Source of the DNA: Streptomyces bottropensis ATCC 25435
GTDB taxonomy: Bacteria > Actinomycetota > Actinomycetes > Streptomycetales > Streptomycetaceae
Length of the DNA stretch: 64,000 bases
Reading direction: 5' to 3'
NCBI RefSeq assembly: GCF_000383595.1
Contig: NZ_KB911581.1
Coordinates: 7,647,519 to 7,711,518, forward strand
The position numbers were made by a program, and so were the translations under genes. The notes under the pieces are model-generated. The model made no database searches. It saw nothing but the letters and a program-made list of their open reading frames with translations, and was not told where the DNA came from. Positions 55,294 to 64,000 of this stretch are shown in pieces; positions within the stretch are counted from its first letter, which is position 1, and every line of letters begins with the position of its first letter.

Positions 55294-55679
55294 GGAGACC
55301 TCCGGATGCGGATCTTGTGGACACCGCATCCAGATTTTCTGAATTAGTAGTACTTTGCCCTGTTTGCCTGCACCAGAAGAGTGAGGAAAAGGCGAGATGG
55401 AGCCGGATGACCTCTGATGGCCGACACCCCGGACACTCACGGAACGTCACAAGCGGTCGACAGAACGGGGAAGCCGTTCAGCTCGGGGCAGAAACGATCT
55501 GTCAGATCAGGTCGTTGTTCAGGGAGACTGGAGAGTGGCTGGAAGGCCTTGGGGGCAACCTCTATGATCGGCACACTTTCCTGCACGGACACGGCTTGAG
55601 CGCCCCGACGTACCGGTTCGGCCGCTCCGACGAGACACATGAGATCCGTACGAAAACGAGTGCACTGCGGGAGCGAACG
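55294..55679. other. divergent regulatory region of the metallopeptidase gene and cdgA
   Basis: 386 bp with lower G+C than its surroundings. The plus-strand frame stays open here, but its third positions are not GC-biased, so I read it as untranslated leader rather than coding. BldD control of cdgA is known in S. coelicolor; AGTGA at 55380-55384 could be a half-site, but I see no full BldD box. Confidence 0.5.
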
Positions 55680-57560
55680 GTGAGCGGAACGTCCCAAGGG
55701 CCGGCGCCCGCGCCAGACCTCGTCCGGCCGACGATCACAGAGCGTCACGCCAATGCGTCAGCTCAGCCGACACGGTCGTCGGAGGAGAGTCCCACGACAC
55801 CCGCCGCCTTTTCCCTCGCGCCGCTGGCCATGGCCGTCGTCGACCGCGACGGGCTGGTCGTCACGGCCAACGGGGCGATGGGGACCCTGCTCGGCACGGG
55901 CGCGGAACCGCTGGCCGGGCGGGTCGCCGCCGATCTGGTGGACCTCGCCTCGGACACGCGCACCTGGCACGCGTACCGCGAGGTGCTGCGCGGCCGGCAG
56001 GCCCGGCTGCGCTGTACGCGCCGGCTCAAACAGCCGGACGGCACCTGGCTGTGGGTCCAGGTGTCGGTGGCTCCGCTGCCCGAGGAGGAGCGGGCGGTGC
56101 TTCTCTCGGTCGCCGACATCAGCGCCACCCGTCAGCTTCAGGCCAGGCTCCGCCACCTGCAGATGCACGACCCGGTGACCCGGCTGCCCAACCGCACCCT
56201 CTTCTTCGAACAACTCTCCGCCGCCCTCGAACGGGAGGCCTACGACGAGGTCGGCACCGGGCGGATCGGCCTGGTCTATCTGGACCTGGACGGGTTCAAG
56301 GCGGTCAACGACACCCTCGGCCACCGTGTCGGCGACCGGCTCCTCGCGGCCGTCGCCGAGCGGCTCACCCGGTGCGCCGACGAGGCCGCCCTCCAGCGCA
56401 AGGCCGGTACGACCGCCGGGGCGCCGCTGGTGGCCAGACTCGGCGGTGACGAGTTCGCGCTGCTGGTGGAGGACTCCACCGGCACGGAGCAGCTCGCCGA
56501 CCTGGCCGACTCGGTCCTCAAGGCGCTTCAGGCGCCCTTCGACCTGGCCGGTCAGCGGCTGTCCGTCTCCGCGTCGATCGGGGTCGTCGAACGGCAGTCG
56601 ACGAGCACGACGGCGACCGGACTGATGCAGGCCGCCGACACGACGCTGTACTGGGCGAAGGCCGACGGCAAGGCCCGCTGGACACTGTTCGACCCGGAGC
56701 GCAACGCCCACCGGATGACCCGTCAGGCCCTGTCGTCCACCCTGCGGGCGGCCGTCGGGCGGGGCGAGTTCGTCCTGGAGTACCAGCCGCTGGTGGGCAT
56801 GGCGCAGGGCGAGGTGCGCGGGGTCGAGGCGCTGGTGCGCTGGCATCACCCGCAGTTCGGCCTGCTGACGCCGAATCGGTTCATCTCACTGGCCGAGGAG
56901 GACGGCTCGATCGTCCAGCTCGGGCGGTGGATTCTGGCCACCGCCTGCCGGCAGGCCCGCCGCTGGCAGATCGACCACCCCGACCGGGCGCCGATCTTCG
57001 TCAGCGTGAACGTGGCCGTCCGCCAGGTCTGGGACTCCGATCTGGTCGCCGACGTCGCCGAGATCCTCGCGGAGACCGGCCTCGCCCCGCATCTGCTGCA
57101 GCTGGAGCTGACCGAGTCCGCGCTCATGGGCTCCGCCGGCCGCCCCCTCCAGGCGCTCAGGGCGCTCAGCGACATGGGCGTACGCATCGCCATCGACGAC
57201 TTCGGCACCGGGTACTCCAACCTCGCCTACCTGAGCCGGCTGCCGGTGTCGGTGTTGAAGCTGGACGGGGCGTTCGTCCGGGGATTCCAGTACGAGGGCG
57301 CGCAGGAGGGCCCCGCCGCGGGGGACGACCAGGACTCCGGGCAGCCCAACCCCGCCGACGAGATCATCGTCGAGGCACTCGTCCAGCTCGCCCACCGGCT
57401 CGGGCTGTCGGTCACGGCGGAGGGCGTGGAGACCGACGCGCAGGCCTCCCGGCTGCGCAGACTCGGCTGCGACACCGGGCAGGGGTGGCTGTACTCCCGC
57501 GCGGTGTCGCCGGAACGGATCGCGGAACTGCTGGGGGCCGCGGCCTGCCCTCAGGCCTGA
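55680..57560 (+). CDS. cdgA: PAS-GGDEF-EAL c-di-GMP enzyme CdgA
   Basis: A 626-residue protein: PAS domain (~45-150, FSLAPLAMAVVDRDGLVVTA), GGDEF domain with an intact RLGGDEFALL (255-259), and EAL domain with VRGVEALVRWHHP, DFGTGYSNLAYL and TAEGVE. Both signatures look catalytically competent, so it could make or degrade c-di-GMP, the ligand of BldD. GTG 55680 has GGGAG 6 nt upstream; ATG 55407 in the same frame would add 91 residues of poorly biased codons. The S. coelicolor counterpart is CdgA (SCO2817). Its 3' end overlaps the convergent LLM gene by 10 bp. Confidence 0.9.
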   Translation: MSGTSQGPAPAPDLVRPTITERHANASAQPTRSSEESPTTPAAFSLAPLAMAVVDRDGLVVTANGAMGTLLGTGAEPLAGRVAADLVDLASDTRTWHAYREVLRGRQARLRCTRRLKQPDGTWLWVQVSVAPLPEEERAVLLSVADISATRQLQARLRHLQMHDPVTRLPNRTLFFEQLSAALEREAYDEVGTGRIGLVYLDLDGFKAVNDTLGHRVGDRLLAAVAERLTRCADEAALQRKAGTTAGAPLVARLGGDEFALLVEDSTGTEQLADLADSVLKALQAPFDLAGQRLSVSASIGVVERQSTSTTATGLMQAADTTLYWAKADGKARWTLFDPERNAHRMTRQALSSTLRAAVGRGEFVLEYQPLVGMAQGEVRGVEALVRWHHPQFGLLTPNRFISLAEEDGSIVQLGRWILATACRQARRWQIDHPDRAPIFVSVNVAVRQVWDSDLVADVAEILAETGLAPHLLQLELTESALMGSAGRPLQALRALSDMGVRIAIDDFGTGYSNLAYLSRLPVSVLKLDGAFVRGFQYEGAQEGPAAGDDQDSGQPNPADEIIVEALVQLAHRLGLSVTAEGVETDAQASRLRRLGCDTGQGWLYSRAVSPERIAELLGAAACPQA

Positions 57561-58657
57561 GGAGCGCCCCCGGCTCCCGGCAGGCCGTAGGCGTCGGCGA
57601 TCAGTTCGTACGAGCGCAGGCGCAGGTCGGGGCTGTGGGCGTGGGAGGTGAGCATCAGCTCGTCGGCGCCCGTGCGCTTGTGCAGGTCGTCGAGACGGGT
57701 GCGGACCTCGTCGAGGGTGCCGTGGACGACGTCGGCGTTCCAGGAGTCGATGAAGTCCTGTTCGACCGCGCTGAACTCGTACGCCTCCGCCTCCTCGGGT
57801 GTCGGGACGAGACCGGGGCGGCCGGTGCGCAGGCGGACCATGTTGAGGGCGGCGGCCCTGACCTGGCGGCGGGCCTCCTTCTCCTCGTCGGCGGCGAGGG
57901 CGGAGACGCCGATCAACGCGTACGGGGCGTCGAGGACCGGCGAGGGGCGGAACGACTCGCGGTAGAGGTCGAGCGCCGGGATCGTGTTCCGCGCGGAGAA
58001 GTGGTGGGCGAAGGCGAAGGGCAGGCCGAGGGAGCCGGCCAGCCGGGCGCTGAAGCCGGAGGAGCCGAGCAGCCAGATCGGGGGGCGGTGCGGGGACTGG
58101 ACGCCGCCGGGCGAGGTGCTCTGGACGGGACCCGGGACCGCGTGGATACGGCGGTAGGGGTGGCCGTCGGGGAAGTCGTCGTCCAGGAAGCGGGTCAGCT
58201 CCGCGAGCTGCTCGGGGAAGTCGTCGGCGCCCTCCTGGAGGCGGGCGGAGCGGCGCAGGGCGGCCGCGGTGGCGCCGTCCGTGCCGGGGGCCCGGCCGAG
58301 GCCGAGGTCGACGCGGCCGGGGGCCATCGCTTCGAGCGTGCCGAACTGCTCCGCGATGACCAGGGGGGCGTGGTTGGGGAGCATCACGCCGCCCGAGCCG
58401 AGGCGGATGCGGGTGGTGTGGGCGGCGAGGTGGGCGAGGATCACGGCGGGCGAGGAGGAGGCCACTCCCGGCATCGAGTGGTGCTCGGCGACCCAGTAGC
58501 GGTGGAACCCGCGGGCTTCGGCCTGGCGGGCGAGGGTGACGCTGGTGCGGAGGGCGTCCGTGGCGGTGCGGCCGGCGCCCACGGTGACCAGGTCGAGGAC
58601 GGAGAGGGGGACCGGGGCGGTGCCCTTGGCTTCGCCTCGTATCTCGGCTGTGGTCAC
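57551..58657 (-). CDS. LLM-class flavin-dependent oxidoreductase
   Basis: A 368-residue bacterial luciferase-like monooxygenase with PLSVLDLVTVGAGRTATDAL at the N-terminus, then RYWVAEHHSMPGVASSSPAV, RIRLGSGGVMLPNHAPLVIA, RVDLGLGRAPGTD and PIWLLGSSGFSARLAGSLGL. These are the signatures of the group that includes YceB/MsnO8-type proteins using FMN or F420. The substrate is unknown. The gene stands alone on the minus strand, and its stop lies inside the last codons of cdgA. Confidence 0.9.
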   Translation of the reverse strand: MTTAEIRGEAKGTAPVPLSVLDLVTVGAGRTATDALRTSVTLARQAEARGFHRYWVAEHHSMPGVASSSPAVILAHLAAHTTRIRLGSGGVMLPNHAPLVIAEQFGTLEAMAPGRVDLGLGRAPGTDGATAAALRRSARLQEGADDFPEQLAELTRFLDDDFPDGHPYRRIHAVPGPVQSTSPGGVQSPHRPPIWLLGSSGFSARLAGSLGLPFAFAHHFSARNTIPALDLYRESFRPSPVLDAPYALIGVSALAADEEKEARRQVRAAALNMVRLRTGRPGLVPTPEEAEAYEFSAVEQDFIDSWNADVVHGTLDEVRTRLDDLHKRTGADELMLTSHAHSPDLRLRSYELIADAYGLPGAGGAPQA

Positions 58658-58911: not shown

Positions 58912-59643
58912 TCACACCTGCACGATCGGTTCCCTGGTGAACAGTCGGCCCAGTCGTGGTGCGTTGACCCTCCTGTCGGCCAGCCGCAGGGCCTCCCAGA
59001 CCGTGACCTGGTTGGCGGTGAGGACCGGTTTGCCGAGTTCCTTCTCCAGGGTGGGGAGGTGGGAGACGGTGTGCAGGGCCGTGTCCGGGAGGAGCAGGGC
59101 CTCCGCCTCCGGATGGTCGGCCGCGCGGGCGAGGGCGAGTATCTCGTCGAGACCCCAGGTGCCCACCTCCGCCGCCGTGACGATCCCGGCGCCCCGCACG
59201 GAGAGGACCTCGACGCCGGCCGCCGCCAGGAAGTCGACGAAGAGGCGGGCCACGTCGTCCGGGTAGGTCGCCGCCACGGCGACCCGCGTGGCGCCGATCT
59301 CCCGTGCCGCGTGGGCGAAGGCGAAGGACGTGGAGGAGGCCGGGAGGCCCGCCGCGCGGGCGAGGGCGCGGATCTGCTCGTGGGCGCCCTCGTAGCCGTG
59401 GACGAAGCTGCCGCTCGTGCAGGCCCAGACGACGGCCTCCGAACCGGAGAGGCGCAGGGCCTCGCAGCCGGCGGACAGGCGTTCGGGGGCGCCCATCTCA
59501 CGCAGGGCGTCCACGCGGTGGGCGTCCTCGCCGATGTCGGTGTGCACCACGTCCACCCGGATGTCGCTGCCGAGCAGTTGCTCCATGCGCGGATAGTCGT
59601 CCTCGGCGGAGTGGCCCGGGTAGAGGAAACCGAGTGCGGTCAT
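58912..59643 (-). CDS. Asp/Glu racemase / maleate isomerase-family protein, single-Cys form
   Basis: A 243-residue member of the maleate cis-trans isomerase / arylmalonate decarboxylase group. The first catalytic cysteine is present (Cys75 in WACTSGSFVHG). At the position of the second cysteine the sequence reads LLLPDTALHT, with Asp187 in place of Cys. The shared C-terminal TANQVTVWEAL is intact. With one cysteine it may be a decarboxylase, a lyase or an inactive partner, not a two-base isomerase. The ATG at 59643 overlaps the stop of the paralogous gene (ATGA) and has GGAAGG upstream. Confidence 0.8.
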   Translation of the reverse strand: MTALGFLYPGHSAEDDYPRMEQLLGSDIRVDVVHTDIGEDAHRVDALREMGAPERLSAGCEALRLSGSEAVVWACTSGSFVHGYEGAHEQIRALARAAGLPASSTSFAFAHAAREIGATRVAVAATYPDDVARLFVDFLAAAGVEVLSVRGAGIVTAAEVGTWGLDEILALARAADHPEAEALLLPDTALHTVSHLPTLEKELGKPVLTANQVTVWEALRLADRRVNAPRLGRLFTREPIVQV

Positions 59644-60449
59644 GCCCAACCTTCCTGTTCTTCCGGCAGTACCGGCGGTGGCGGAACAGGCCCCGCACCG
59701 AACGGCTGCCTGGCCGACTCGTCGAGCAGAGCCTGGTACGGACCCACCGCCCGGGTACCCAGATGACGCAGTGCCGCCCACATCGTCACCTGGTTGGCCG
59801 AGATCACCGGCATCCGCAGCTCCGCTTCGAGCTGGGGGATGACGTCGTACGTGGGCAGATTGGTGCAGGAGATGAAGAGGGCGTCCGGGGTCGTGGCGCG
59901 GACCGCCCGGTGGGCCATGGCGACCACGTCGCGGTAGGGGACCTTCCAGATGTGCCGGACCAGGCCCAGCGAGGCGCGGCCGGTGACCAGGATGCCCGCC
60001 TCGGCCAGGTACTCCTCCAGGGACCGGGTGACCGAGACGGTGTAGGGGGTGACGAGGGCGACACGGCGCGCGTGCAGCTCGGCCAGGGCGGTGAGCAGCG
60101 CGCCCGAGGTGGTGACCGCGTGCGCGGCGCCCGCGCGGGTCATCGCCTCGCCCATCGCGCGCTCCCCCGCGACCCCGCCGACGAAGCTGCCGCTGGTGCA
60201 GGCGTAGGCCACGATCTCGGGCGCGACCTCGTTCAGGGCGCGGACCGCCTCGTGCAGCGTCTCGTGCTCGGAGACCAGGCGGGCCAGGTGGAGGCTCACC
60301 TCGACCGGGACGTACGGGGTCCGGGTGAGGTGCAGGGAGACGTCGTCCGGGACCCACCGCCACAGTTCGCGGTCGAGGGCGAAGTCGAAGGGGGCGATGA
60401 CACCGATGCCGCGCTGCGGTCGGGGCCCACCGAGGAAGGAGACGTTCAT
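59640..60449 (-). CDS. Asp/Glu racemase / maleate isomerase-family protein, two-Cys form
   Basis: A 269-residue paralogue of the next gene, with both catalytic cysteines: Cys84 in YACTSGSFVGG and Cys195 in FISCTNLPTYD. It also has SANQVTMWAAL. This fits maleate cis-trans isomerase or a related racemase. The two coupled paralogues may form a heteromer or act in sequence. I chose ATG 60449; GTG 60467 is possible. It is divergent from the hydroxyacid dehydrogenase gene, so the 166-bp gap probably holds promoters for both arms of the cluster. Confidence 0.82.
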   Translation of the reverse strand: MNVSFLGGPRPQRGIGVIAPFDFALDRELWRWVPDDVSLHLTRTPYVPVEVSLHLARLVSEHETLHEAVRALNEVAPEIVAYACTSGSFVGGVAGERAMGEAMTRAGAAHAVTTSGALLTALAELHARRVALVTPYTVSVTRSLEEYLAEAGILVTGRASLGLVRHIWKVPYRDVVAMAHRAVRATTPDALFISCTNLPTYDVIPQLEAELRMPVISANQVTMWAALRHLGTRAVGPYQALLDESARQPFGAGPVPPPPVLPEEQEGWA

Positions 60450-60615
60450 GACGGTCACCGGCCTCACGGAGAGAGATGTGCGGACGACAGAACGTGCGCA
60501 AGTCCGTGTTGACGAAGGTAGGTTCGGGTGCGAGCGTGGTCAATCAGTGCACGTCACACACGTCTTCGTGGTGCCGGTAGAGCCGCTTTTCGATCGTGAG
60601 GGGTTGCCTTCGCCC

Positions 60616-61575
60616 ATGACCTCGTCGCAGCGCCCGCGCCTGCTCGTCCTCGACGCCGAACCGCGCCCCCGGCTCGGGCGGCTCACCGGGCGGGCCACCG
60701 TCGAGTACACCGACGCCTCGACGCTGGCCGAGCGGCTGCCGTACGCCGATGTGCTGCTGGTGTGGGACTTCGCGTCCCTCGCGGTGCGGGACGCCTGGCC
60801 GCGCGGCGGGCCCCGGCCCCGCTGGGTGCACACGGCGAGCGCGGGCGCCGACCATCTGCTGGGCCCCGGGCTCGTCGCCGACGAGGAGGCGGTGGTGACG
60901 AACGCGCGCGGGATCTTCGAGGCGCCGATCGCCGAGTACGTCGCCGCGCTCGTCCTCGCCATGGCCAAGGATCTGCCGGGCAGCTGGGAGCTGCAGGGGC
61001 GGCGGGAGTGGCGGCACCGGGAGGCCCTGCGGGTGGCCGGTGGCCGGGCCTGTGTGGTGGGGTCCGGGCCGATCGGGCGGGCGATCGCGCGGTACCTCAA
61101 GGCCCTCGGCCTCCACACGGCCGTGGTGGGCCGGGCCGCGCGGGCGGGGGTGCACGGCCCGGAGGAGCTGGACCGGCTGCTGGCCCGCGCCGACTGGGTG
61201 ATCGTGGCCGCGCCGCTGACGGAGGCGACGTACGGCATGTTCGACGCCCGGCGGTTCGGGGTCATGCAGCCGTCCGCGCGGTTCGTCAACGTGGGGCGTG
61301 GGCAGCTCGTGGTGGAGGACGCGCTCGTCGAGGCGCTGCGCAAGCGATGGATCGCGGGGGCCGCGCTGGACGTCTTCGAGCGGGAGCCGCTGGGACCGGA
61401 CGATCCGCTGTGGGAGGTGCCGGGGCTGATCGTCTCTCCCCACATGAGCGGGGACACGGTGGGGTGGCGGGACGAACTCGGCGCCCAGTTCGTGGAGTTG
61501 TTCGAGCTGTGGGAGGCGGGCAAACCGCTGCCCAACGTGGTCGACAAGCAGCGCGGGTACGTGCCCGGGCACTGA
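60616..61575 (+). CDS. D-2-hydroxyacid dehydrogenase
   Basis: A 319-residue NAD(P)-dependent oxidoreductase. The nucleotide-binding loop is VVGSGPIGRAIARYL, the catalytic arginine lies in FVNVGRGQLVVEDAL, the glutamate in FEREPLGPDDPLW, and the histidine in VSPHMSGDT. It interconverts a 2-keto acid and a D-2-hydroxy acid. Its place between the isomerase pair and an amidase suggests a step in the breakdown of an amide- or imide-derived dicarboxylate. The ATG at 60616 is 13 nt after GAGGGG; the start is moderately certain. Confidence 0.87.
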   Translation: MTSSQRPRLLVLDAEPRPRLGRLTGRATVEYTDASTLAERLPYADVLLVWDFASLAVRDAWPRGGPRPRWVHTASAGADHLLGPGLVADEEAVVTNARGIFEAPIAEYVAALVLAMAKDLPGSWELQGRREWRHREALRVAGGRACVVGSGPIGRAIARYLKALGLHTAVVGRAARAGVHGPEELDRLLARADWVIVAAPLTEATYGMFDARRFGVMQPSARFVNVGRGQLVVEDALVEALRKRWIAGAALDVFEREPLGPDDPLWEVPGLIVSPHMSGDTVGWRDELGAQFVELFELWEAGKPLPNVVDKQRGYVPGH

Positions 61576-61595
61576 ACTCCCCTGGAAGGGGCCGG

Positions 61596-63020
61596 ATGTC
61601 GGAGCTCACGGAACTGTCCGCCGTACGACTGGTCGAGGGGTATCGCAAGGGCGAGTTCGGTCCCGTGGAGGTGGCGCGGGCGGCGCTGGAGCGGGCCGAG
61701 CGGGTGCAGCCGGAGGTGAACGCCTTCGTGCGGATCGACACCGGGTCCGCCCTCGCGCAGGCGCGCGAGTCGGAGGAGCGCTGGCGGCGCGGGGAGCCGG
61801 CCGGGGCGGTGGACGGGGTGCCCGTCACGGTGAAGGACATCCTGCTGGTGCGGGGCGGGCCGACGCTGCGGGGCTCCAGAACGGTCTCGGCGGAGGGGAG
61901 TTGGGACGAGGACGCGCCCTCCGTGGCCCGGCTGCGGGAACAGGGGGCGGTCTTCCTGGGCAAGACCACGACGCCCGAGTTCGGCTGGAAGGGCGTCACC
62001 GACTCACCCCTCAGTGGCGTGACGCGCAATCCGTACGACCTCTCGCGTACGGCCGGGGGCTCCAGCGGGGGCGCCGCCGCGGCCGTCGCGCTCGGGGCCG
62101 GGCCGCTGGCGCTGGGCACGGACGGGGGCGGCAGTGTGCGTATCCCGGCCGCGTTCTGCGGGGTGTTCGGGATGAAGCCGACGTACGGGCGGGTGCCGCT
62201 GTATCCCGCGAGCGCGTTCGGCACGCTGTCCCATGTGGGGCCGCTGACCCGGGACGCGGCCGACGCCGCGCTGATGCTGGACGTCATCTCCGGGCCCGAC
62301 GCGCGGGACTGGTCCGGGCTCGGACCGCCCTCCGGTTCCTTCGTGGACGCGCTCGACGGTGGGGTGCGGGGGCTGCGGGTGGCGTACTCGGCGTCGCTGG
62401 GCGGGCAGGTCGCGGTGCGGCCCGGCGTCGCGCGCGCCGTGCGGCGGGCGGTGGAGGGGCTCGCCGGGCTCGGCGCGTACGTCAGCGAGGCCGATCCCGA
62501 CTTCTCCGATCCCGTCGCCGCGTTCCACACGCTGTGGTTCAGCGGGGCGGCTCGGGTGACGCAGCGGCTCGGGGCGGGGCAGCGGGGTCTGCTGGACCCC
62601 GGGTTGCGGGAGGTGCGGGATCTCGGGGCGCGGCTGTCCGCGCTGGACTATCTGGCCGCGGTGGACGTGCGGATGGAGGTCGGGCGGCGGATGGGGGCGT
62701 TCCATGAGCGGTACGACGTTCTTGTCACGCCTTCCCTGCCGGTGACCGCGTTCGAGGCGGGGGTGGAGGTGCCGGGGGGTTTCGGGGGGCGGCGGTGGAC
62801 TGCCTGGACGCCGTTCACGTATCCGTTCAATCTGACGCAGCAGCCTGCGGCGAGTGTGCCGGTGGGGGTGGATGAGGCTGGGTTGCCTGTGGGGGTGCAG
62901 GTGGTGGCGGCTCGGTATCGGGACGATCTGGTGTTGCGGGTGGCTCATGCGTTGTACGGGGCGGGGGTTGCCGGGGTGGGGGTGGGGGTGACGGGCGCCG
63001 TCGGTTCGTCGGGGGGTTGA
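61596..63020 (+). CDS. amidase (amidase-signature family)
   Basis: A 474-residue amidase with the full Ser-cisSer-Lys triad: Lys80 in VTVKDILL, Ser156 in GGSSGG and Ser180 in GTDGGGSVRIPA. It hydrolyses a carboxamide, and context suggests an early step of the linked pathway. ATG 61596 follows GGAAGGGG and lies 20 bp after the dehydrogenase gene, so the two are cotranscribed. There is no GatBC partner nearby, which makes a tRNA amidotransferase role unlikely. Confidence 0.9.
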   Translation: MSELTELSAVRLVEGYRKGEFGPVEVARAALERAERVQPEVNAFVRIDTGSALAQARESEERWRRGEPAGAVDGVPVTVKDILLVRGGPTLRGSRTVSAEGSWDEDAPSVARLREQGAVFLGKTTTPEFGWKGVTDSPLSGVTRNPYDLSRTAGGSSGGAAAAVALGAGPLALGTDGGGSVRIPAAFCGVFGMKPTYGRVPLYPASAFGTLSHVGPLTRDAADAALMLDVISGPDARDWSGLGPPSGSFVDALDGGVRGLRVAYSASLGGQVAVRPGVARAVRRAVEGLAGLGAYVSEADPDFSDPVAAFHTLWFSGAARVTQRLGAGQRGLLDPGLREVRDLGARLSALDYLAAVDVRMEVGRRMGAFHERYDVLVTPSLPVTAFEAGVEVPGGFGGRRWTAWTPFTYPFNLTQQPAASVPVGVDEAGLPVGVQVVAARYRDDLVLRVAHALYGAGVAGVGVGVTGAVGSSGG

Positions 63021-63023
63021 TGC

Positions 63024-63123
63024 GCCCCCGCCGCCCCTACCCGTCCCGCCCCAGGGGCTGCGCCCCTTCGACCCCCATGCGCCGGCCCGGTGGGGGCTGG
63101 TCGCGCAGTTCCCCGCGCCCCTG
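63024..63123. repeat. composite intergenic repeat including the 18-mer
   Basis: GCCCCCGCCGCCCCTACC, AGGGGCTGCGCCCCTTCGACC, CCGGTGGGGGCT and CAGTTCCCCGCGCCCCTG (63106-63123) occur in the same order as at 58761-58890. It fills the gap between the convergent amidase and DUF3830 genes, where it may act as a terminator. Confidence 0.75.
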
Positions 63124-63146
63124 GAAGGCAGGGGCCGGCCCCGATG

Positions 63147-63650
63147 TCAGGCTCGGCGGAAGGTCAGGGTTTCGCCCTGGGCTCCCGTCCGCCAGAGATC
63201 GTTGCAGGCCTGGGCCATCTCGCGCAGGCCCTCGGTCACCTGGCCCCAGACGATGCCGGGTACCCAGCCCACGTCCCCGTTCAGCAGCAGGTTGTTGCGT
63301 TCGTAGAAGAGGGCCAGGTCGACGAGGGTCGCGTCGGGGCGGACGTCGCGGTCGTAGCCGTAGGCGCCGGTGGCCAGTTCCGTGCCGGCGAAGGAGAAGT
63401 AGCAGAGGTCGCCCGGGATGGGCGTGACCGTCGGGTTCTCCAGGGGCGGCTCGCGGTCGGCGAAGGGCGGGAAGAGGGCGTAGATCTCGTTGCGGGCGTA
63501 CTTGGCGTGGTAGACGTCGCCGGACAGGGGCAGCGCGTCCCACACCGCGGCGCAGGTGATCGGCGCGCGGTCGTCGAGCAGCAGGGCCGTGCAGCGGACC
63601 CCCCGCCGGTCGAGCGCGATCTCGATGTGCCGTTCCGCCGGTTCCGCCAC
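63147..63650 (-). CDS. DUF3830 family protein (cyclophilin-like fold)
   Basis: A 167-residue protein of the DUF3830 type (IEIALDRRGVRCTALLLDDR, AVWDALPLSGDVYHAKYARN, PIPGDLCYFSFAGTELATGA, NNLLLNGDVGWVPGIVWGQV). Members are predicted to have a cyclophilin-like beta-barrel and are, as I recall, usually encoded with amidases and Asp/Glu racemase-family genes; no activity is established to my knowledge. GTG 63650 has GGAGG 5 nt upstream. It is divergent from the binding-protein gene at 63773. Confidence 0.82.
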   Translation of the reverse strand: MAEPAERHIEIALDRRGVRCTALLLDDRAPITCAAVWDALPLSGDVYHAKYARNEIYALFPPFADREPPLENPTVTPIPGDLCYFSFAGTELATGAYGYDRDVRPDATLVDLALFYERNNLLLNGDVGWVPGIVWGQVTEGLREMAQACNDLWRTGAQGETLTFRRA

Positions 63651-63772
63651 CGCAGCCTCCTCGCGTCGACACACCCGCCCCGCGCCTGCCCGGTATCCCG
63701 GGCTTCAACCCGCGCGTGAAGGACCGGAAAAGACCTGGCATACCCCCTGCCGCCTCGGGTAGCCGCGCGGCC

Positions 63773-64000
63773 ATGGCTCGATTGCACGCACACGACAGGA
63801 AAAGCCGACATCCCAGCAGACCCGGCATCCCCCGCCGCACCCTGCTCACCGGCACCGCCGCCCTGGTCGGCACGGGCGCGGTGGTGGGCGCGAGCAGTGG
63901 ATGCAGCCGGGTGGCCACCGCGGACACCGGCGACGGCGGGCAGCTCCTGCAGCAGCTGCGCGCCAAGGGCACCGTACGGCTCGGGATCGCCGGCGAGCAG
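63773..64000 (+). CDS. ABC transporter substrate-binding lipoprotein, 5' part only
   Basis: The first 76 codons before the window ends. A twin-arginine-like stretch (GIPRRTLLTGTAALVGTGAV) is followed by a lipobox-type SSGC, and the mature start LLQQLRAKGTVRLGIAGEQ is typical of family 3 (amino acid or ectoine type) binding proteins. The rest of the gene and probable permease and ATPase genes lie beyond the edge. It is likely the importer for the substrate handled by the neighbouring amidase/isomerase genes. Confidence 0.75.
   Translation, partial: MARLHAHDRKSRHPSRPGIPRRTLLTGTAALVGTGAVVGASSGCSRVATADTGDGGQLLQQLRAKGTVRLGIAGEQ

Follow-up and report, generated by a model that had tools for sequence, protein, structure and literature searches.

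A ten-gene locus of Streptomyces bottropensis as a probable variant cluster for ectoine and 5-hydroxyectoine catabolism

A 64,000-nucleotide stretch of Streptomyces bottropensis ATCC 25435 (positions 7647519-7711518 of a single 8.96-Mb contig; hereafter the window) was analyzed together with the neighboring DNA past position 64000. The end of the window carries genes for two Asp/Glu-racemase superfamily proteins (raceA and raceB), a D-isomer-specific 2-hydroxyacid dehydrogenase (HADH), an amidase, a DUF3830 protein, and the binding protein EhuB. A preliminary description, made from the window alone, had reported these six adjacent genes in two divergent arms. All six were present as two divergent pairs, with intact frames and high third-position G+C. 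It had also reported that no regulator lay within the window and had called for extending the locus. The extension yielded the remaining importer genes (ehuC, ehuD, and ehuA) and, next to them, an IclR-type regulator. The resulting ten-gene unit is ordered raceA, raceB (reverse strand), HADH, amidase (forward), DUF3830 (reverse), ehuB, ehuC, ehuD, ehuA, and iclR (forward) (Table 1).

Table 1. Features of the locus; positions are those of the window unless given for the extended locus L002.
Feature	Position	Strand	Description
raceA	58912-59643	-	Asp/Glu-racemase superfamily (Pfam Amdase), 243 aa
raceB	59640-60467	-	Asp/Glu-racemase superfamily (Pfam Amdase); 4-nt overlap with raceA
Divergent raceB/HADH control region	60468-60615		Holds 40-bp conserved block CCGTGTTGACGAAGGTAGGTTCGGGTGCGAGCGTGGTCAAT
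HADH	60616-61575	+	D-isomer-specific 2-hydroxyacid dehydrogenase, 319 aa, PF02826
Amidase	61596-63020	+	Amidase-signature hydrolase, 474 aa, NF004815, PF01425
DUF3830	63147-63674	-	PF12903
EhuB	~63773-~64708 (crosses window end at 64000)	+	Ectoine/hydroxyectoine-type binding lipoprotein, TIGR02995
EhuC, EhuD, EhuA, IclR regulator	L002:7215-10539 (beyond window)		Downstream of EhuB
Palindrome TGGCATATGCCA	L002 between EhuA and IclR (window-equivalent ~67050-67260)		12-bp palindrome
IclR-type regulator	L002:9781-10539 (window-equivalent 67262-68020)	+	Just past the rest of the importer

All four importer subunits exceeded the NCBIfam equivalog cut-offs for the ectoine/hydroxyectoine importer: EhuB (TIGR02995) with 247.6 bits against 190.9, EhuC with 234.8 against 196.95, EhuD with 250.6 against 205.2, and EhuA with 354.1 against 345.4. 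The nearest solved relative of EhuB was the Sinorhizobium meliloti EhuB (2q88), whose ligand residues we take to be E21, F24, Y60, F80, and R85. The residues aligned with this box read E-Y-F-Y-R in the present genome and E-[YF]-[FW]-[YA]-R across the aligned sequences, so that the aromatic character and both charges were kept. Import of ectoine or hydroxyectoine by EhuBCDA is supported by the genomic data.

Both racemase-family proteins matched PF17645 (raceA 100 bits, raceB 99 bits). They remained below the cut-off of 318 for EutA (TIGR02990; raceB 107.8 bits, raceA 99.8 bits) and below that of 225 for arylmalonate decarboxylase (NF052327; raceA 100.1, raceB 96.5 bits). Identity to S. meliloti EutA was 33% for raceB and 29% for raceA. 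According to column counts, the two catalytic cysteines were kept in raceB (33/33 sequences). In raceA the first position was Cys in 32 of 44 sequences, with Ser in some relatives, and the second was Asp instead of Cys in 40 of 44. HADH matched PF02826 with 158.6 bits (best solved relative 5mh5), and its catalytic Arg-Glu-His residues (R228, E257, and H276) were invariant across 42 sequences. The amidase scored 735.5 bits against NF004815 (cut-off 506) and 343.7 bits against PF01425; its Ser-Ser-Lys residues (K80, S156/S157, and S180) were invariant across 34 sequences. The DUF3830 protein matched PF12903 over its full length with 210 bits against a cut-off of 26, and is the sole copy in the genome; the closest match to its gene (98% identical) was in Streptomyces stelliscabiei. 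Its solved homologue, 3kop, has no known function, and our literature search for DUF3830 found no paper mentioning the family. An AlphaFold model of the protein was set aside because its quality (mean pLDDT, the predicted local distance difference test, of 45) was too poor for a fold search.

Conservation within Streptomyces was assessed in 59 full-length loci collected via DUF3830. All ten genes were kept in 58 of them, and the flanking two-component genes in 4. Orthologues of raceB (identity of 72% or more) were found in 21/21 DUF3830-positive and 0/19 DUF3830-negative Streptomyces genomes (Fisher p 8e-12, n = 40). At the same chromosomal site of the negative strains, raceB, the amidase, and DUF3830 had been lost together, and raceA, HADH, Ehu, and IclR were often kept. 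This joint loss indicates a unit made up of two sub-modules. Short raceB remnants (63-88% identity) persisted in three DUF3830-negative strains (L162, L164, and L172); therefore, the loss is secondary. The gap left by the lost genes holds a 165-aa gene in L162 and L172.

The five enzymes also stayed clustered in other Actinomycetota, where the set was kept and the gene order reshuffled. Because gene calling in these relatives relied on a simple script based on codon usage, start positions are approximate and some genes may have been missed. Of the 28 non-Streptomyces loci in which four or all five of the enzymes were found, a GntR-type regulator was present in 27, a class-III aminotransferase in 18, and an aldehyde dehydrogenase in 18, the last two occurring together in 17. 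Ehu was replaced in several lineages by ProP-like MFS (5/28 loci) or BCCT (3/28 loci) transporters. An Ehu-like importer recurred in L128, and L127 carried EhuA/D together with DUF3830 and the aminotransferase. A tartrate/D-malate dehydrogenase was added in three loci; that of L118 scored above the curated cut-off, and its gene has a 4-base overlap with that of the aldehyde dehydrogenase. The gene grouping is conserved far beyond chance and is not an accidental neighborhood. Poor co-conservation of the genes, named beforehand in the preliminary description as evidence against a pathway, was not seen. The genomic data support the view that the five enzymes function as a single unit.

Several observations link this unit to ectoines. 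The cluster directly abuts ectABCD in two genomes (L136 and L137), and Ehu homologues lie directly behind ectABCD in L165 and ectABC in L183. An ect-ehu arrangement with salt induction has been published for Nocardiopsis gilva (PMC5884947). In a class-wide sample that excluded Streptomyces, ectoine synthase was present in 30/33 genomes with long DUF3830 vs 31/322 without it, and by genus in 13/15 vs 16/121 (p ~1e-8). Among ectoine producers, the hydroxylase was found in 29/30 genomes with the core of the unit and 14/29 without it; since the EctD and EctC tests share phylogeny, both are to be read as associations. Outside the phylum, the proteobacterial plasmid relative of raceB with the highest identity among the matches listed (39.7%) occurs in Sinorhizobium, where its neighbors are an Ehu importer, an aldehyde dehydrogenase, and a diaminobutyrate aminotransferase.

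The main ground for assigning a role to the upper enzymes is module exchange. Two loci from ectoine producers lacking the hydroxylase (L174 and L175) carried the same HADH, class-III aminotransferase, and aldehyde dehydrogenase families, together with a DoeA-like M24 enzyme (426-432 bits), an M20 deacylase, and a class-I/II aminotransferase. Both lacked raceA, raceB, the amidase, and DUF3830; L174 also had the same GntR family and ectB-ectC alongside. In L112, a DoeA/DoeB-like set was combined with HADH and DUF3830. DoeA-type clusters were found in 0/30 core-positive and 6/29 core-negative producers. This exchange suggests that the functions of DoeA and DoeB are taken over by raceA/raceB, the amidase, and DUF3830. 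No DoeA/EutD ectoine hydrolase was found in the S. bottropensis genome (best match 74.5 bits against a cut-off of 613). DoeB deacetylase, EutB, and EutC were absent among the genes at the locus, the only part of the genome searched for them.

Taken together, the unit is probably a variant catabolic cluster for ectoine and 5-hydroxyectoine, in which the racemase-family proteins, the amidase, and DUF3830 would replace DoeA and DoeB. The substrate is indicated by the importer, the replacement transporters, the adjacency to ectABCD, and the co-occurrence with ectoine synthase, and ectoines as the substrate class are well supported by the genomic evidence. The main substrate is probably 5-hydroxyectoine, which sequence cannot separate from ectoine with certainty.

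In the proposed pathway, EhuBCDA would take up the solute, and an upper module of raceA/raceB, DUF3830, and the amidase would carry out ring opening and acetyl removal, as the comparison of modules suggests. RaceB, perhaps with raceA, may abstract the C4 proton so that the 5-hydroxyl leaves. DUF3830 would hydrolyze the resulting dihydropyrimidine to a 4-acetamido-2-oxo acid, HADH would reduce this to a D-2-hydroxy acid, and the amidase would release acetate. Omega-transamination and then oxidation by an aldehyde dehydrogenase could give D-malate (or tartrate) and finally pyruvate. The putative lower module in the relatives consists of HADH, the class-III (omega) aminotransferase, an SSADH-like aldehyde dehydrogenase, and sometimes the tartrate/D-malate dehydrogenase, which matches such an end product. 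In Streptomyces, whose cluster has no gene for the aminotransferase or the aldehyde dehydrogenase, the last steps would need general enzymes. A lower route that follows the known pathway and converts diaminobutyrate to aspartate would be equally permitted. A more specific and rather doubtful proposal is a chemically distinct second route for 5-hydroxyectoine, with DUF3830 as the ring hydrolase, abstraction and elimination by raceA/raceB in place of EutABC, and carbon leaving through the D-2-hydroxy acid as D-malate, not aspartate.

Some of the data weigh against an ectoine catabolic cluster. RaceA lacks the second catalytic Cys. Several Streptomyces retain Ehu, raceA, and HADH after the loss of raceB, the amidase, and DUF3830; therefore, the link between Ehu and the complete set is not a strict one. 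Three DUF3830-positive non-Streptomyces genomes in the sample had no ectoine synthase, and the associations with EctD and EctC partly reflect phylogeny. The Streptomyces cluster is without the aminotransferase and aldehyde dehydrogenase of its relatives, and the best homologue of the clustered aminotransferase in this genome is just 39% identical. Finally, the order of the reactions is inferred and no sequence evidence fixes it.

Three other explanations were weighed against this evidence. The unit might degrade another compatible solute or zwitterion, such as N-acetyl-diaminobutyrate or a betaine, with the ectoine link due to broad-specificity transporters. ProP and BCCT proteins do carry several solutes, raceA and raceB reach only about one third of the EutA cut-off, and neither a DoeA in the genome nor a DoeB in the cluster is present. 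We consider this unlikely in view of the four Ehu equivalog matches, the direct ectABCD adjacency, the module exchange with DoeA/DoeB-like enzymes, and the association with ectoine synthase. It is very improbable that Ehu is a mere osmoprotectant importer beside an unrelated five-enzyme operon. The persistence of Ehu in Streptomyces strains without raceB, the amidase, and DUF3830 would fit such an arrangement, as would the usual absence of Ehu beside the core outside Streptomyces; however, Ehu homologues co-locate with the core in the distant lineages L128 and (as EhuA/D) L127, and the identified replacement transporters are likewise osmolyte transporters.

The preliminary description had favored import of an amide- or imide-containing compound, its cleavage by the amidase, isomerization or decarboxylation, and redox of a 2-hydroxy acid; as weighed here, the idea includes a step like that of a maleate isomerase or hydantoin racemase. 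Its outline of a coherent uptake-and-catabolism unit with an amidase and a 2-hydroxyacid dehydrogenase holds, and so does its view that this set, with a family of unknown function, matches no established gene set. The amide or imide substrates found no support. Amidase, racemase-superfamily, and 2-hydroxyacid dehydrogenase genes are indeed present, but the identifiable transporters and neighbors point to osmolytes, not imides, and no recurring hydantoinase, carbamoylase, or maleate-pathway gene was recognized in about 40 loci. The four lines of evidence given above point to ectoines instead of maleamate, hydantoins, succinimides, or N-carbamoyl compounds, and we give this explanation hardly any credence. 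Pantothenate, pyrimidine, vitamin B6, and hydantoin pathways had also been considered for the enzyme set and were dropped after osmolyte transporters and ect genes had been found.

The probable ectoine cluster shares an Ehu-type importer and an EutA-superfamily protein with the ehuABCD-eutABCDE/doeABCD clusters of S. meliloti and Halomonas elongata (PMC5924519). Its relatives share in addition the aminotransferase and the SSADH-like aldehyde dehydrogenase (48% identical to that of S. meliloti). It differs in having two EutA-like proteins, of which one has an altered active site, no DoeA, DoeB, EutB, or EutC at the locus, and an extra amidase, HADH, and DUF3830. The regulator here and in the relatives is of the IclR or GntR/FCD type, whereas eut/doe clusters have the MocR-type EnuR. 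Since no DoeA exists in the genome and the EutA cut-off was not reached, the unit is not a DoeA/DoeB-type member, though it resembles an ectoine utilization cluster. The doeBDAC cluster reported in Tsukamurella paurometabola and methylotrophs (PMC7192451), with similar clusters in L177 and L180, represents actinobacterial ectoine catabolism; clusters of this type rely on DoeA and an EctB-like DoeD, and none was found in a core-positive genome of the sample. The arylmalonate decarboxylase/maleate isomerase family belongs to the same superfamily, and raceB retains both of its cysteines; the proteins here differ in scoring below the decarboxylase cut-off, in the Cys/Ser plus Asp of raceA, and in their osmolyte-catabolism context.

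Ectoines are widespread protectants and nitrogen-rich nutrients. If the proposed role is true, a common DoeA-independent cluster would explain how many soil producers, Streptomyces and relatives, recycle their own osmolyte. DUF3830 and a racemase relative whose active site is altered would each gain a first function open to testing, and the gene annotations would be corrected. A 2018 review confined ectoine consumers to Proteobacteria and regarded the 5-hydroxyectoine steps as unproven (PMC5924519); the actinobacterial doeBDAC cluster was described afterwards (PMC7192451).

Two conserved elements were found in the control regions. The 40-bp block CCGTGTTGACGAAGGTAGGTTCGGGTGCGAGCGTGGTCAAT between raceB and HADH was nearly invariant in Streptomyces and has TTGAC/GTCAA ends; its 9-mers occurred in 69-71 of 71 Streptomyces loci, compared to at most 6 for shuffles. 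The palindrome TGGCATATGCCA (at most 2 mismatches) was present upstream of the IclR gene in 65/67 Streptomyces loci and is likely an IclR autoregulatory site. A common operator in both divergent promoters was rejected, as no excess of shared 8- to 10-mers was found. Since TGGCATATGCCA is conserved only upstream of IclR, co-regulation of the arms is unsupported.

The PF12903 family extends beyond this setting. On proteobacterial plasmids only distant members were found, and the single annotated one has different neighbors. A short form (~128 aa) exists without the neighbors described here, and short-form members in L130, L131, and L132 have other neighbors. A Novosphingobium member adjoins urea carboxylase and allophanate hydrolase genes, and three tandem copies occur in one actinobacterial genus (e.g., G502 and G516). 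PF12903 proteins probably serve more than one function.

Further genes recur near the cluster. A Glu/Leu-dehydrogenase-family gene beside DUF3830 in L122-L125, L127, and L150 possibly provides an alternative deaminating step. In one family (L139-L147), the amidase has a LuxR-type response regulator and a GAF-domain histidine kinase as neighbors; L139 has an adjacent formate-tetrahydrofolate ligase gene. A GGDEF/EAL regulator and a luciferase-like monooxygenase (55317-58657) flank the site across Streptomyces; they were placed outside the unit because they are retained near the site even in strains that have lost the core.

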